In this document: positions 17,675 to 24,387 of the stretch, piece after piece
How positions within the stretch are numbered: the stretch's first letter is position 1
Layout: each line of letters begins with the position of its first letter
DNA from: a virus
DNA length: 24,387 nucleotides
Reading direction: 5' to 3' (one strand)
IMG/VR virus record: IMGVR_UViG_3300043331_001088
Coordinates: 1-24,387 of that record
Translations under genes and position numbers: made by a program
The notes under the pieces: model-generated
What the model saw: only the letters and a program-made list of their open reading frames with translations
The model's database searches: none
What the model was told of the DNA's origin: nothing

Positions 17675-17912
17675 TCTTGTGCTTTTCTCTCCATGCGTTC
17701 ACGGCCTGCACGCTGTTGTAGAACATGCCCTCAACGCCATCGATTCGCCACATCCCGGACTGTCCGTCTTGATATGGCGCGGGCGGCTCGGTGCGCTTCG
17801 GTGTGGGCGCGATTAGATTCAGGTAGCGCTCCAGGGCGTCAGCGATACGCTCGAGTGCTTTCGCTGTTCGCTCGGGCGTATCGTCAAGACTGATTTCGAA
17901 CTCTTCGTTCAC
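17649..17912 (-). CDS. Small hypothetical protein in the neck gene cluster
   Basis: An 87-residue protein from the GTG at 17912, which overlaps the adaptor stop as GTGA and has AGAGG upstream; an earlier TTG at 17942 is less likely. Residues 9-30 (DTPERTAKALERIADALERY) form an amphipathic helix, and the C-terminal half has aromatic residues and MWRIDGVEGMFYNSVQAVNA. I do not recognise the family. Placement suggests a neck or assembly accessory. Confidence 0.68.
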   Translation of the reverse strand: MNEEFEISLDDTPERTAKALERIADALERYLNLIAPTPKRTEPPAPYQDGQSGMWRIDGVEGMFYNSVQAVNAWREKHKNEVQPVSA

Positions 17913-18253
17913 GCCCGCAGCCTCTCTTCCGCCGTGATCCAAATCTCTCGCCGCGCCTCGTCGCGATCCTGCACGGTCACAAAATGAAACACGCGGCTGC
18001 CCAGCTCGGCGAACATGTCGACCGTGATCCCCGGGCGGTACCGGATGCGGATACGTATGATCGCGCGCCCATCCTGGATCCCCATGCGCAGAACCTCGTC
18101 ACCAGACAGGAACTCGATGGCTGCCCGGGGTGTGGCGATCGTGGTCGCACTGGCCGGCAGCAGCGAACCGTCAGCCTGTCGGGTGGGCGAGGCCGGCTGC
18201 TTGATCGTGATCTGCTCCCGGAGTTCGCCGGAGGTCAGCCAGCTACGTGCCAT
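17909..18253 (-). CDS. Head-tail adaptor (SPP1 gp16-like)
   Basis: A 114-residue protein typical of the phage head-tail joining family (Phage_H_T_join): LTSGELREQITIKQPASPTR, RAAIEFLSGDEVLRMGIQDG, RIRIRYRPGITVDMFAELGS, and a final strand FVTVQDRDEARREIWITAEE. In SPP1 the equivalent ring closes the connector and gates DNA exit. The ATG overlaps the connector stop as TAATG, consistent with coupled production of the two ring proteins. Confidence 0.88.
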   Translation of the reverse strand: MARSWLTSGELREQITIKQPASPTRQADGSLLPASATTIATPRAAIEFLSGDEVLRMGIQDGRAIIRIRIRYRPGITVDMFAELGSRVFHFVTVQDRDEARREIWITAEERLRA

Positions 18254-18849
18254 TAGGTGCTCAGCATCCGAATCGGCCAGAGAAGCGCCTGCGCGGCTTC
18301 GGGGATCGTGCCGGATAGCCGCTGGCCCGGCGCCGGGACATCGTCGCCGCGGTGCGCATAGAGTTCACTGATGGTCATCAGAATGGCCTGCTTGATGCGC
18401 AGCGGGACATCGCTCGCAGACGACCCGTATCCGGCGTTGTAACGCACCACGATCGCCTCGCGCGGCTTCAGTGTGACGGAGGGCCAGACGTTGCCGTAGG
18501 CGAGCACCAGCGCGCCCGGCTCGCGTGCCGTGGCGGCGAAGTAATTGGCCGCGTCCCAGGTGGTCTCGTCGCCGTCGGCGTCGGTGTACTTGAGCGAGCC
18601 GATCGATATGAGCGGCGCGGCATTGGGCAGCTCAATGAAGTCGCAGCCCGGGAAGTCGTCCAGGAAATAATCCAGCGTCGTCTGGATGAGCTTGCGTCCC
18701 AGGAAGTCCTCGACCTTCTCGCGCGCTGCGGTGATCAGGCTCGTCAGCAGCGTGTCGTCTGTCGTAAAATCCACGCGCGTCTGAGCTTTCACCTCGGTTA
18801 GCGTGACCGGCTCCGATGCTGGCGGGGTGACGATCTTCGGGTTTGCCAC
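18253..18849 (-). CDS. Head-tail connector (phiE125 gp8 / gp6-like)
   Basis: A 198-residue protein. Landmarks are VTLTEVKAQTRVDFTTDDTL, LLTSLITAAREKVEDFLGRK, the strand ELPNAAPLISIGSLKYTDAD, VRYNAGYGSSASDVPLRIKQ and AILMTISELYAHRG. These define the gp6-like/phiE125 gp8 family, a ring under the portal. It begins with a GTG whose first base directly follows the TAA of the beta-helix gene. The gene normally follows the capsid gene closely, but here four unrelated genes precede it in the window. No portal or capsid gene is visible. Confidence 0.85.
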   Translation of the reverse strand: MANPKIVTPPASEPVTLTEVKAQTRVDFTTDDTLLTSLITAAREKVEDFLGRKLIQTTLDYFLDDFPGCDFIELPNAAPLISIGSLKYTDADGDETTWDAANYFAATAREPGALVLAYGNVWPSVTLKPREAIVVRYNAGYGSSASDVPLRIKQAILMTISELYAHRGDDVPAPGQRLSGTIPEAAQALLWPIRMLST

Positions 18850-21800
18850 TTATGTCCCGGCTGTCTTTGCGACGCCGATCTTTCCGGTCCCCTGGTTATC
18901 AGCTGTTCCGCACCAAATTTTGTAGGCGTACTCGGTCACCTGTGACAGGCCGCTCGCGGTAAAGGTCTTGTCGCGCGTGGCGCCATTCGCCGTCTGCCCA
19001 CGCGTGATGTTCGCCGCGTTCGCGATCGCCCAGGTCGCGCGCCAGTTATCGACGTCGTAGCAGGTGCCCCCGACGCACTCGGCATAGTCCACGTAGCACT
19101 CCGCTGTCTGAAACGAGCGGAACGAGAGCGTGAAGCTGTTCGCATTTCCCGTGGCTGCTACCGGCCCGACGCGACCGATCTTTTCCTCGATCGTGTCGAT
19201 GGGCGCGCCCGAGCCATCGTAAGTGGGCGAAAGCGGCCGGTACTCTGTACCGAAGGTCAGCGCCAAGCGCTGATTCGTGCTCTGATCGCACGGATTGTTC
19301 GCGTTGCCGATGTAGGTCCAATCGGGCGCGGACAAACCGGTGAAGTTCGCCAACGCCGAAAGACTCGATTGGCAATGATTGTCTCCCGCCGCGGCGCTCG
19401 CTGCCTTTGTCGAAAAGTCTGAGAACGGCGAATTTGTGATCATCGGCAGGATAAAGTTCCCGCCCAGATCGAGCAGCGGATCTACGTGATCATCGGAGCC
19501 CGTTCTCGATGCTTCCTCGAACGCGGCCAAGCCGCCAGAAGTAGCAGGCCGGGCAGGAAGTTCGTTCGCCGGCGCAGTGGATTGGAAGCCCATCTGATTC
19601 GTATTCCCGCCGCCGGGCGCTCCGATGATGTTGTTTCGCACGCGCAGGCCACTCGACGCCTCAGCACCGGGGAAGTCCCAGAACCTGGCAAGCCGCGCGC
19701 GGTGAGGGCCGTCCGTGTTTTCCTCCACCGTCAGATCGACAACGCCGCGATTCATGCCGAAAAAAAAGCCATTGTTGTCACCTGGGTCGTCGGTGTAGAC
19801 CATTGTGTCGGTCCCGACGCGCAAGTTACCGCGCACGCGAATCTTTTGCGTGACGAGTAAAAGCCTGTCCGCGGGACGCGAAGAAGCCGCAAAGTAGAAC
19901 CCGCTGTTGCCGTCGCGCAGCACGTTATACGCTACGTCGACATTTTTTGGCGCTACGCCTGGATGCGTCCCCGCCGTGCCACGAGCGCCTTGCAGCGTCA
20001 TTTCAAGCGCAGACTGAGCGGCGGCAAACGCCGACCACCATCCCTTCATCTGGAGGCCCTCGATGAGCCACCGATTGCCGCCGTTTTTAACTTCGATCAG
20101 ATAGGGGTTTGGATTGAAGTAGATCCCTCGCGCGGGATGCGAGCCTACGTACTCGTCACGCCACCAGAACGTACTTTTCTTTATCGACACATCGTCCATG
20201 GATGCGCGATCGGCGGTGAAGAACGTTGCATCGTCGGCGAACATGACCGGCTTGGGAAAGATCCGGGTATTCAGCAGTTGGAAGTCTTCGACGCGGCGCC
20301 ACTCGATGTAGGCATCCTGCGTGAACGGGGCCTCGATCACATCCGAGACAACGGGCCGGATCTCGATATCGCACTGCTCCAATATCGAGTTGGCCACCGT
20401 CACGCGGTAGGAAGCATTGAAGGCGCCTGCGCTGCCCATCCAGGGAAAACACTTGCCCAGGTAGGATCGATCGACCAGGAAATCCCCACGACGCGCTGCG
20501 GCCGGATCGCCATCCGAAGAGTTGACGGCGAAGGTCGCGCCCCAACCACGCATGTCCAGGAACAAGTAGCCGCCGCTCGCGCCGGCTACGGCCGGAACTC
20601 CGAGCAGCTTGATATTGTTCGCATCGACGGCCGAGTAGGGGTGGGATCGCGGCTCGTGGTCGCCAAGCTCATCCTTATTCGTCTTGTAGATCATCACGGA
20701 CTTGATCCGCCGGATGGTGCCGAGCGTGCTCGGCGTGCAATTTGGCGTTTGGGTCGGATGCGAAAGCGTCACCGTGTTGCCGGAGACCGCGCCCTTCCAG
20801 ACGACATCATTGCAATTGGTGCCCGAGTTGCCCTCGATCATTACCATTTGGCCGTTGCCGAGCTGGTACTCGCTCGTAGTTCCGCTCACGGTGACCTGAT
20901 TCGTGGCAGGCACGCCTGTGATCGTCATCGTTGGAAAGTTCGGCAGGCCATGATCGGTGATGGTTAATCCCTGGGTGCCGTCGCCGGCGTCCTGCCAGGA
21001 CTCGATTTCGTGCGCCGCGATCCGCGTCACCGTGCCGCCCGAACCGTCATACGTGCCGACAAGATTCGCGACGGTGCCCGTGCAGCCGGTTGCGCCCGTG
21101 CGAAGCTGAAACGTGTTGCCGCTCTTATTGCACAGCAGAAAGGTCCCGTTGGCGCCGCGCACGCCCGTGCCTTCCAGATTGACGATCACCGCGTTACCAT
21201 TGACGACCGCGGCGGGAATCGATGAGACGGTGACCACATCGGTGCCTTCGTTGATCCCCGTGATCGTCATCTGGACGGGCGCCAAAACCGGGTCATCGAG
21301 CTTGGGCGGGCCGATGTAGACGCCCGTGAATGAGTAACCGCGCGCGCCAGCGGCGGGCGCGTAGGCAAAACGCAAGTTGCCGTTGCCATCCGCGCTCGTC
21401 GGCAGAAACGTGCTCCACGTCAAACCGAACAGCTTGTCTCGGTAGGTTTCGTCGATCGGGTTTCCCGCTGGCGGCAGCACGACATCGGGCGCATTCGAGC
21501 GCACGTTGACAAAACCATCGTTGGCGATCACCGGCATGGTGAAGTTGGACACCGGGCAATCGATCCCTGCCGGCCCGACGAGTTCGACCGTGTCTCCATC
21601 ACCCGCATCGGCCTCGGCCGCAGCCTTCTGTGATGCGAGGGTCGAGCAATCATTGGCGATCGAGTAGGAATGCCCGCCACCGCCCGTAATCGCGCCCGCG
21701 GCGCGCAAGCCCGCATGCACGGGCGGATCTGGCGTCGGATCACTATCGAGCGCGTTCATCACGACGTAGGGGAACTCGCCTGCCCCATCGCAATTGAAGC

Positions 21801-22212
21801 CGGAATTCGCCGCCGCGTACGCAATGCCGCTCGGTCCGCAATTCGTGCACGCCTGCAAGCAAGGCGCAGCGCTTGAAGACCACAGCGTCTTACTGCTGTC
21901 GGAAGTCTGGGGAATGAGATAGATGCGCTTACCGGGATCCAGGTTGTACAGGACGCAAAACGTGCGGTTGCCGCCTTGCGTGGTCTCGGCCACAAGTCGC
22001 GTGCTCATCCGCGCGAGCGACGCCGGCGAGTCCTCGTTCACGCCCACGCCGTAATCCCAGATGCAACGATCGCCGTCGTTGCCGATCACGGGTGTGATAT
22101 TCCCATGGATCGCCAAGCCGCGATCGAGCTTCTCGGCCACGAACACATCAAATGGCGTGCCCTGACCGGAGAGAGGAAGCGCGCAAAGAACGAGTAGAAC
22201 AAACTTCTTCAT
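18850..22212 (-). CDS. Exported beta-helix protein with Fn3-like C-terminus
   Basis: An 1120-residue protein from the ATG at 22212, which overlaps the previous stop as ATGA; the open frame upstream is not protein-like. MKKFVLLVLCALPLSGQGT is a good signal peptide. Residues 315-400 and 428-502 are two related beta modules (MTITGINEGTDVVTVSSIPA and MTITGVPATNQVTVSGTTSE), of the kind found in phage and bacterial fibres. About 515-1010 reads as a right-handed beta-helix, as in pectate-lyase-like tailspikes (DVAYNVLRDGNSGFYFAASS, VDLTVEENTDG, GLRVRNNIIGAPGG). About 1020-1120 is a Cys-containing Fn3-like domain. Many cysteines fit an exported, disulfide-bonded protein. Polysaccharide binding or cleavage is possible; catalytic residues were not identified. 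Confidence 0.75.
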   Translation of the reverse strand: MKKFVLLVLCALPLSGQGTPFDVFVAEKLDRGLAIHGNITPVIGNDGDRCIWDYGVGVNEDSPASLARMSTRLVAETTQGGNRTFCVLYNLDPGKRIYLIPQTSDSSKTLWSSSAAPCLQACTNCGPSGIAYAAANSGFNCDGAGEFPYVVMNALDSDPTPDPPVHAGLRAAGAITGGGGHSYSIANDCSTLASQKAAAEADAGDGDTVELVGPAGIDCPVSNFTMPVIANDGFVNVRSNAPDVVLPPAGNPIDETYRDKLFGLTWSTFLPTSADGNGNLRFAYAPAAGARGYSFTGVYIGPPKLDDPVLAPVQMTITGINEGTDVVTVSSIPAAVVNGNAVIVNLEGTGVRGANGTFLLCNKSGNTFQLRTGATGCTGTVANLVGTYDGSGGTVTRIAAHEIESWQDAGDGTQGLTITDHGLPNFPTMTITGVPATNQVTVSGTTSEYQLGNGQMVMIEGNSGTNCNDVVWKGAVSGNTVTLSHPTQTPNCTPSTLGTIRRIKSVMIYKTNKDELGDHEPRSHPYSAVDANNIKLLGVPAVAGASGGYLFLDMRGWGATFAVNSSDGDPAAARRGDFLVDRSYLGKCFPWMGSAGAFNASYRVTVANSILEQCDIEIRPVVSDVIEAPFTQDAYIEWRRVEDFQLLNTRIFPKPVMFADDATFFTADRASMDDVSIKKSTFWWRDEYVGSHPARGIYFNPNPYLIEVKNGGNRWLIEGLQMKGWWSAFAAAQSALEMTLQGARGTAGTHPGVAPKNVDVAYNVLRDGNSGFYFAASSRPADRLLLVTQKIRVRGNLRVGTDTMVYTDDPGDNNGFFFGMNRGVVDLTVEENTDGPHRARLARFWDFPGAEASSGLRVRNNIIGAPGGGNTNQMGFQSTAPANELPARPATSGGLAAFEEASRTGSDDHVDPLLDLGGNFILPMITNSPFSDFSTKAASAAAGDNHCQSSLSALANFTGLSAPDWTYIGNANNPCDQSTNQRLALTFGTEYRPLSPTYDGSGAPIDTIEEKIGRVGPVAATGNANSFTLSFRSFQTAECYVDYAECVGGTCYDVDNWRATWAIANAANITRGQTANGATRDKTFTASGLSQVTEYAYKIWCGTADNQGTGKIGVAKTAGT

Positions 22213-22592
22213 GGGGTTAGCATCGGCGCGCCAAGCTCGCAAGCGTCGCCATCCTGGCGCGCGGCTCCTGTCACTTCGTGCGGGTCGGACACCCCGCCCG
22301 CATCGTTGCCGCCCACAGCCGGCGCCGAAGCCCAGTAAATCTCGGTGAGCAGCGGGCAATCGGTCGTGAACTCGCCGGCGGCCGCTTCGGCCACCGCGCC
22401 TTCGCCAATGAAAATGTTCACCACAACGGCATGCCGCCCGCCTTGCGTCGTGATGCGCACAGCGGGACCCTGGGGTGCGAAAGCCATCTGCAAGCGCGCG
22501 AGGCGCGACATGGGCGCGATCGGAAGTTCGAGCGGGACAGCCGCGAGACAAGCAGTGGCTGAGATCAATAGACAAGCGATCAGGCGCGTCAT
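22209..22592 (-). CDS. Small exported protein, function unknown
   Basis: A 127-residue protein with a clear signal peptide, MTRLIACLLISATACLAAVP, probably cleaved after A-A or processed at the Cys as a lipoprotein-like site. The mature part contains VRITTQGGRHAVVVNIFIGE and only two cysteines beyond the signal. No family recognised. It lies three bases after the LamG gene and overlaps the beta-helix gene as ATGA, so the three exported proteins appear to be co-translated, possibly as parts of one complex. Confidence 0.65.
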   Translation of the reverse strand: MTRLIACLLISATACLAAVPLELPIAPMSRLARLQMAFAPQGPAVRITTQGGRHAVVVNIFIGEGAVAEAAAGEFTTDCPLLTEIYWASAPAVGGNDAGGVSDPHEVTGAARQDGDACELGAPMLTP

Positions 22593-22595
22593 TCG

Positions 22596-23426
22596 CTATC
22601 CCCTGCCGGCCCCGAAAATCTCCGCAAAACATGAAGCGGCCACGACGACGTTGTAAATGCGCGTGTCGTCGATCAGTCCGGCGAACTCGTTAGCGAGATT
22701 CGTGGAAGCCAGCGCCACCAGGTACGCGCCATCGCTACGCATCGTCCCGCCCGCCGAGGAAACCAGCGTTGTCGTCACCGGCTGTCCGTCGATGTAAATC
22801 TGAATCGTGTCGCACGACATGTCGCCGCAACCGGTCGCGGAAAATCCAACGTGCGTATATGTTGACAAGCCGACGTGCGAATCCCAAGAGTCATCGGGGG
22901 AGGTCCATGTCGCAAGTCCATTCGAGGTATTTTCAAGTTGCACGCGGACCGCGCCAGGCGTATCGATTGTGGTCTGGAGCCGCCAGCTCCAATCACTGGC
23001 TCCTGAAGCCGTCTTGCCCATGATGACCATGGTGGCCGCACCATAGGCATCCTGCCGCACCCACGCCATGACGCTGATCGCCGTCTCAGCGAGCGTATCC
23101 GCATCACTTCCGAACGTCGCCTGATCATCTGTGCCGTCGAAGTCGAGGGCGTAATTGCCGCTCGATGCCGGGTCTTCCACTCGGGCAGTCTGGCCGGCCA
23201 AAGTACCCGTGCCGCTGGTCGCGCCTTCCCAGGTCTGCGTACCGGAAGAAATCACGGTGTGGTGAACCAGATTCGCGGCCGGCGGGCAGCCGGTGATGCC
23301 CGAGCCGGAATCCGTTCGTCCCTTGCTCGCGATGATGAGTTCCTGGGCGAACAACGGCGGATGCGCAAGCCACGCAGCAAGCCACGCAACGACTAGCGCC
23401 CTGAGCAGATATGCTTTCACGGTCAT
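22596..23426 (-). CDS. Exported LamG / concanavalin A-like protein
   Basis: A 276-residue protein from the ATG at 23426, overlapping the upstream stop as ATGA and preceded by GAGG. MTVKAYLLRALVVAWLAAWL then AHPPLFAQE is a signal peptide. The remainder is a LamG-type jelly roll: YALDFDGTDDQATFGSDADT, ISVMAWVRQD, VQLENTSNGLATW, IQIYIDGQPV and the closing GLIDDTRIYNVVV. LamG domains bind sugars or proteins. The hub at 7101-9479 carries another LamG domain, but this one is free-standing and exported. An early CPPAANLVHH segment separates the signal from the lectin fold. A role in adsorption, coating the cell or blocking superinfection is inference. Confidence 0.78.
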   Translation of the reverse strand: MTVKAYLLRALVVAWLAAWLAHPPLFAQELIIASKGRTDSGSGITGCPPAANLVHHTVISSGTQTWEGATSGTGTLAGQTARVEDPASSGNYALDFDGTDDQATFGSDADTLAETAISVMAWVRQDAYGAATMVIMGKTASGASDWSWRLQTTIDTPGAVRVQLENTSNGLATWTSPDDSWDSHVGLSTYTHVGFSATGCGDMSCDTIQIYIDGQPVTTTLVSSAGGTMRSDGAYLVALASTNLANEFAGLIDDTRIYNVVVAASCFAEIFGAGRG

Positions 23427-24387
23427 GGCGCGAACCTCATGATGAGTTGCCCGCCCTTGCCGTCGCTCGCGGTGTCCACATCCGCGCACCAGCGGTCACT
23501 CGCCAGCGCGTCGTCGTTCGACGCGTTAATTAGCCCGTTGCAGCCGCTCGCCGCGTTGTCGTCCGAGTGAAACTCGTTCTGCTGAACGTTGCAGCCCCCG
23601 GTCAGCACGTCTACGGTTCCCTCCGCGGTGGCCGAGCTAAGGCGTTTCCGGCTGACCATGACGGTGACGCCGCTTGCGCCCGTATCGGCGGCGTCCAAGC
23701 GTAGCTCGACGTGACTGAGCAGCATCGGCGCGACAGAAGAGCACCAGATTGGATTCGTCGAGCAATCATCGGGCCCGGGGATTGTGAAGCATGCCTGCTG
23801 ATCGCCCGTCGTGATCGTCACGCCAGGCGCAAACAGCGGCAGAACGACCTCGCGCGTTCGCAAATTGTAAGTGCAGGGCGTGCCGTTGGGCGCGATGCAA
23901 AGTTCCGTACCTTCGATCTTGCCGCTCTCGTAGACGACCTGGCGGATGCGGAACGTATTCGTCGCGGGACACTCGCCATAGACCCGGTCGCCATCCTGGG
24001 TCATGACGATATCGCGGCCGGTCGGGTTCGCCACGCCCGCGAAGCTGATCGTCACGACTTCGGATTCCGATTCGGGCTGGATGACGAACGTGTTTCCCGC
24101 AGTGCAGGTCCCGCCGCCGTCCCAGGTGTCGGTCGCAGCGTTGCTGAACGTGCCGAGCGAGATTACGCCGCCGCCAGCCGGCAGGGCGAGATCGCCGTTC
24201 GTGTCGAGCGAGACCGCCTGCGCGCTCCCAGCCAGGACGGGGTATTGCGGGTGCGGATTGCCAACGCCGAGATTGGCGAGGATGTTGTGATCGATTCCGT
24301 TGAGCCCGTCGAGGTTTGACGCATCCAGCGGATCGGCGCCGCCCGTCTCATAGCGCGATGCCGGCGCGAAGCCGAGATCGTCCGGGA
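23423..24387 (-). CDS. Fibre-like protein, N-terminus outside window
   Basis: The reading frame stays open to the right edge, so the gene is partial; 320 codons and the stop are visible. Near the edge, NLDGLNGIDHNILANLGVGN followed by PHPQYP matches the H-N-x-L-x-x-L and H-P-Q-Y signature common in tail-fibre stems, usually preceding a receptor-binding part. The rest is beta-rich with several cysteines (CTAGNTFVIQP, SRKRLSSATAEGTVDVLTGG, MRFAP at the end). Stop overlaps the LamG start. Whether it has a signal peptide like its three downstream neighbours cannot be seen. Confidence 0.7.
   Translation of the reverse strand, partial: PDDLGFAPASRYETGGADPLDASNLDGLNGIDHNILANLGVGNPHPQYPVLAGSAQAVSLDTNGDLALPAGGGVISLGTFSNAATDTWDGGGTCTAGNTFVIQPESESEVVTISFAGVANPTGRDIVMTQDGDRVYGECPATNTFRIRQVVYESGKIEGTELCIAPNGTPCTYNLRTREVVLPLFAPGVTITTGDQQACFTIPGPDDCSTNPIWCSSVAPMLLSHVELRLDAADTGASGVTVMVSRKRLSSATAEGTVDVLTGGCNVQQNEFHSDDNAASGCNGLINASNDDALASDRWCADVDTASDGKGGQLIMRFAP

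Follow-up and report, generated by a model that had tools for sequence, protein, structure and literature searches.

A candidate cassette of exported head-fibre proteins beside the head-tail connector gene of a siphovirus

Next to the head-tail connector gene of a phage with an HK97-type siphovirus module lies a tightly coupled block of four genes, three of which are complete and encode proteins with signal-peptide-type N-termini. We read the block as an accessory head fibre or decoration cassette with Sec signal peptides, whose products would be exported and would attach to virions at lysis; judging from the sequences, we assign this reading a probability of about 0.4. Similar arrangements are found in unrelated, uncultured phages, where the proteins that carry the signal peptides are recognisably of virion type.

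Gene order and coupling of the block

The window, by which we mean the whole stretch of DNA that was analysed, is a complete IMG/VR record of 24,387 bases and represents a genome fragment. It contains the HK97-type siphovirus head-tail module in order, with gp6-type connector, head closure, gp10-like, tail tube and tape measure genes. The capsid gene is off the contig, and its place just upstream of the block is deduced from synteny with relatives. The block and the genes that follow it are arranged, almost without gaps, as below.

23423..24387, minus strand: fibre-like gene, truncated at its 5' end by the contig boundary (320 aa visible)
22596..23426, minus strand: LamG (ConA-like lectin) gene, 276 aa, Pfam Laminin_G_3
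22209..22592, minus strand: gene for a small exported-type protein, 127 aa, with a signal-peptide-type N-terminus, supported by codon statistics
18850..22212, minus strand: gene for a 1120-aa protein with a signal-peptide-type N-terminus
18253..18849, minus strand: head-tail connector, gp6/Ad1 type (PF05135 E=3e-11, phrog_442 E=6e-30)
17909..18253, minus strand: head closure protein Hc1 (PF05521, phrog_25)

The preliminary description had placed four genes against the connector, joined by two ATGA overlaps and a three-base gap, and both the order and the coupling are confirmed on the minus strand. In block order the junctions are ATGA, TAG-CGA-ATG, ATGA and finally TAA followed directly by GTG, the connector starting at the base right after the stop codon of the 1120-aa gene (0-base gap). 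Codon statistics indicate that all four genes are coding, with in-frame values of +0.18 to +0.32 bits per codon and values no higher than 0.00 in the other frames.

The same description took as its premise that the connector gene follows the capsid gene in a standard operon, which proved too strict: in the 58 loci where a capsid gene was recognised, the median gap between capsid and connector is approximately 1.0 kb, and the gap reaches 5.2 kb. Since this gap is a common accessory site, the position of the block alone is not unusual. A site that tolerates insertions, together with exported lectins suited to surface modification, would accommodate genes of lysogenic conversion, or morons, that alter the surface of the host cell and whose place in the structural operon is incidental. 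However, the coupling to the connector leaves no room for a promoter, no lysogeny gene was recognised among the window genes searched (a partial genome), and the corresponding cargo in other phages is of fibre type. We regard this explanation as very improbable.

Signal peptides, cysteines and identity of the block proteins

N-termini were assessed with a home-made n-h-c score combined with a -3/-1 site, at a threshold of 4.0. When applied to two 50-kb E. coli K-12 regions, whose proteins we labelled exported or cytosolic from our own reading of the annotation, this threshold called 17/20 exported and 1/43 cytosolic proteins. The three complete block proteins all pass (LamG 4.51, 127-aa protein 5.14, 1120-aa protein 5.44), and with an earlier version of the score their values were reached by 13, 151 and 2, respectively, of 20,000 residue-drawn N-termini. 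The predictor is crude and fires on tape-measure segments too; because two of the 16 other structural genes of the window also pass (tail terminator and major tail protein), single calls do not constitute proof. Mis-called starts were considered as a source of the signal peptides and rejected: a Shine-Dalgarno-like GAGG precedes the LamG gene and AGGGGA the 127-aa gene, while the 1120-aa gene is ATGA-coupled and has no such site.

For LamG the candidate cut chosen by eye falls between LFA and QE, and the best site in the scoring test is after residue 18. The N-terminus of the 1120-aa protein, MKKFVLLVLCALPLSG, would be cut before QG. That of the 127-aa protein is compatible with signal peptidase I or with a lipobox (SATA before C15), a pattern matched by neither LamG nor the 1120-aa protein. 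With all three above a calibrated threshold, the earlier claim of signal-peptide-type N-termini holds at the level of prediction, and we also count as supported the idea that something is exported from this block; Sec export of the three proteins is, in our view, quite probable.

Elsewhere in the window, a 230-aa protein (4751-4059, minus strand) has a strong signal-peptide-type N-terminus, MPMRILAVLLVAIAAPVGA before QT, with a purine-rich site upstream, and gave no family match. A collagen-like protein (GPPGIDGAPGRDGHDGKDGRNG..., 2131-1421, minus strand), read from a GTG start, has an N-terminus of signal-peptide type together with a lipobox-like site; another locus (L128) has a similar collagen-repeat ORF in the interval from capsid to connector. 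An SLT transglycosylase (PF01464; 978-490, minus strand) is a candidate endolysin.

Cysteine is enriched approximately six-fold in the block, as the preliminary description had supposed in speaking of disulfide-type content. With signal peptides removed, 36 of 1779 block residues are cysteines vs 15 of 4223 in 15 other genes of the virion operon (Fisher p=2e-9; p=0.002 per gene). The counts are all even, at 10 in the fibre-like protein, 4 in LamG, 2 in the 127-aa protein and 20 in the mature part of the 1120-aa protein. The enrichment is not general among signal-peptide-bearing proteins of other phages (34/4002 vs 101/16113, p=0.13), and the idea that proteins are generally exported for the sake of disulphide folding was not upheld beyond the window phage.

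The match of the LamG protein to Laminin_G_3 (PF13385, E=4e-12) scores 46.9 bits against a curated cut-off of 27.6, and an AF2 model is beta-rich (pTM 0.70) with LamG/ConA-like proteins as Foldseek matches. Its PDB matches all have TM below 0.5 and represent ConA-like lectin domains of a generic kind, and no ligand is therefore proposed. No relatives of this protein were found in phages. A second LamG domain lies at the C-terminus of a 792-aa tail protein of the window (9479-7101, minus strand). The visible 320 aa of the fibre-like protein include the phage-fibre-type segment 'DHNILANLGVGNPHPQYPVLAG'; the protein gave no tblastn match in phages and no Pfam, PHROG or NCBIfam match. Two further window genes belong to phrog_240 (10245-9817 and 7093-6689, minus strand), the first also matching PF23140, Ralstonia phage GP4 fibre I. 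For the 127-aa protein neither a homologue nor a PHROG match was found.

The beta-helix proposed for the 1120-aa protein could not be confirmed, there being no match in Pfam, PHROGs, NCBIfam or PDB sequences. Rung motifs number 6, little above the 3.7 found in shuffles, and an AF2 model made without an alignment has a pLDDT of 32, unusable for assigning a fold. The C-terminus is weakly fn3-like (Pur_ac_phosph_N in Pfam, E=0.07 at 1019-1103). No relatives were found in viral contigs, genome contigs or phages, and BLASTP gave E=0.008 over 21 residues to a 144-aa protein of locus L087.

Signal peptides beside the connector in other phages

Recurrence was surveyed in 80 loci, most from a connector search (80 loci found) and a few found otherwise; a 9-member connector alignment was too diverse for scanning. 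Since the signal-peptide predictor is crude, the survey was redone with duplicates removed and with a stricter hydrophobic core. Once near-duplicates were removed, signal-peptide-like ORFs made up 12/116 between capsid and connector vs 16/550 elsewhere (p=0.001). With the stricter core the figures are 10/116 vs 6/550 (p=6e-5), a test that is not fully independent by phage because four of the ten strict matches come from one phage. Four of the 12 matches between capsid and connector look weak (L004, L088, L138 and L140).

The clearest cases are L086/L087, from two metagenomes, with five consecutive signal-peptide-type ORFs before the connector (four above threshold, a 79-aa one failing the stricter score), L131 with two such ORFs and L115 with one. 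Less clear are L077, where one ORF lies in the gap from a recognised capsid gene to the connector and another immediately follows the connector; L078 and L082, in which one such ORF flanks the connector on either side but the capsid gene was not recognised; and L125, with a pair downstream of the connector. A further, unrelated phage (L018, also L017) came from a LamG search; its gene order is protease, capsid, several sugar-related-looking genes, a 591-aa fibre-type protein, a 132-aa protein, LamG, a 352-aa protein and a connector-like gene. Signal peptides are found there on the 591-aa, LamG and 352-aa proteins, and fibre-like sequence stands directly behind the signal peptide.

With the same score, no signal-peptide-type gene adjoined the connector in any of the seven bacterial-genome loci scanned. 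Reading the annotation of GenBank relatives, though not systematically for every one, revealed no comparable block; one of these relatives (L004) has at the same site a fibre-type protein of 275 aa together with a GDSL protein, neither with a signal peptide. The recurrence that the preliminary description proposed to check is thus seen for the same kind of cassette in unrelated phages, but not for the same four genes.

The proteins that bear signal peptides elsewhere belong to virion-type families. In L087 and L131 they include phage trimeric fibres, and the 288-aa L087 protein has a fibre core common to 29 other viral loci (best identity 48%), in none of which an ORF passes the signal-peptide test, some of these ORFs being truncated by the start of the contig. 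In L115 the protein aligns with the phrog_12102 profile from residue 19, just behind its signal peptide, whereas the L126 member of this family lacks one and aligns from residue 3; both are encoded between capsid and connector. The EQGGA motif is also present in L131, and the window proteins are not members of the family. L078 and L082 combine a signal peptide with phrog_16194, annotated 'tail protein'. LamG/ConA-like proteins (PF13385) of environmental phages share their domain and a DFDGTDD motif with the window LamG, which has a signal peptide, whereas only 3/48 other distinct N-complete viral LamG ORFs do: that of L018 and the L032/L036 pair, which share one N-terminus. Those of L032 and L036 are long proteins. 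These comparisons suggest that virion-type families have gained the signal peptide secondarily, and more than once. As homologues without signal peptides exist in several families, virion-type adhesins appear to have been re-addressed for export, and the suggestion of a previously undescribed secreted complex, separate from virion proteins, is not supported in that form: elsewhere the carriers are virion-type fibres, a phrog_12102 protein and a 'tail protein'.

Fibres and lectins also occur as head accessories in RcGTA, which has head spikes (Rcc01079/Rcc01080), and among other capsid fibres. The RcGTA head fibre binds capsule polysaccharide and is held by a docking peptide, I-A-L-G-L-G-L-G-L, inserted into a capsid base protein (PMC7296036). 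By this precedent the block could encode virion fibres whose uncleaved hydrophobic N-terminus is such a docking peptide and not a Sec signal, and 7/48 viral LamG ORFs do begin with GLG-type peptides (for example MVGLGLGLGTG). However, the N-termini of the window proteins and of L018, L087, L131 and L115 combine a positive n-region with a longer h-region and a -3/-1 site of small residues; they are without the GLG repeat, and they differ in sequence among proteins of one phage. The RcGTA fibre thus differs from the window proteins in having a GLGLGL docking N-terminus, with export not described in the passages of that source consulted, where the window block has Sec-type signal peptides. We consider docking an unlikely explanation for the block. 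The LamG proteins of L033, L040, L050, L052, L053, L068 and L074 start MLGLGN or MVGLGLGLG, resemble the RcGTA docking peptide and may themselves be head fibres.

Export and attachment to the virion

Phage T5 Llp is a periplasmic protein that blocks the receptor FhuA from the inside and has a disulphide (PMC9586334). It is a precedent for masking a receptor from the periplasm. On this reading the block would encode exported lectins or fibres that are not part of the virion and that, in the periplasm or after release, would occupy the surface receptors or glycans used by the phage itself, with superinfection exclusion, progeny kept off debris or a loosened matrix as the effect. The Sec-type N-termini of the block would suit such a role, and so would the 127-aa protein, which in its candidate lipobox and two further cysteines resembles superinfection-exclusion lipoproteins such as Llp and Cor. 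Llp is nevertheless a single small lipoprotein, whereas the window has large lectin- and fibre-type proteins in a structural operon, the timing of which is late for exclusion. In addition, cargo and position are virion-type, the L018 protein continues as fibre-like sequence straight after its signal peptide, and several different adhesins per phage exceed what one receptor would need. Masking strikes us as a rather unlikely role, although it is the leading alternative to the cassette reading.

Under the preferred reading, that of a head fibre or decoration cassette, the block proteins would be made late, together with the particle proteins, exported via the host Sec system and cleaved by signal peptidase. 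They would fold in the periplasm, where those of the window phage would be disulphide-bonded, and would then be released with the virions at lysis, to become surface fibres of the particle with affinity for glycans of the host or of a matrix. It is the N-termini that point to Sec export of late adhesins, and the virion-like cargo type and genomic position that point to their joining the virion.

Tailed virions assemble in the cytoplasm, and to our knowledge there is no established example of a part of a tailed virion that joins after export. Attachment after export would accordingly require a step without an established example, and we put it forward tentatively, as falling somewhat short of an even chance. 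None of the open-access papers searched describes phage fibre or decoration proteins that carry signal peptides, an absence that is weak evidence as most subscription papers lie outside that set.

Since the arrangement is found again in environmental phages that are unrelated, components believed to be put together only within the cell may in some phages be exported. A broader proposal, which we consider doubtful, is that several tailed-phage lineages have independently placed Sec signal peptides on head-fibre or decoration proteins, which would be exported, mature in the oxidising periplasm and attach only at lysis, in a two-compartment assembly. Annotators should not assume that a signal peptide within the structural operon of a phage must reflect a mis-called start or a gene of the host. 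If virion-type fibres are indeed exported, then either particles would be finished outside the cytoplasm, which permits disulphide-rich, glycan-binding surface proteins, or soluble copies of the adhesins would be deployed against receptors.
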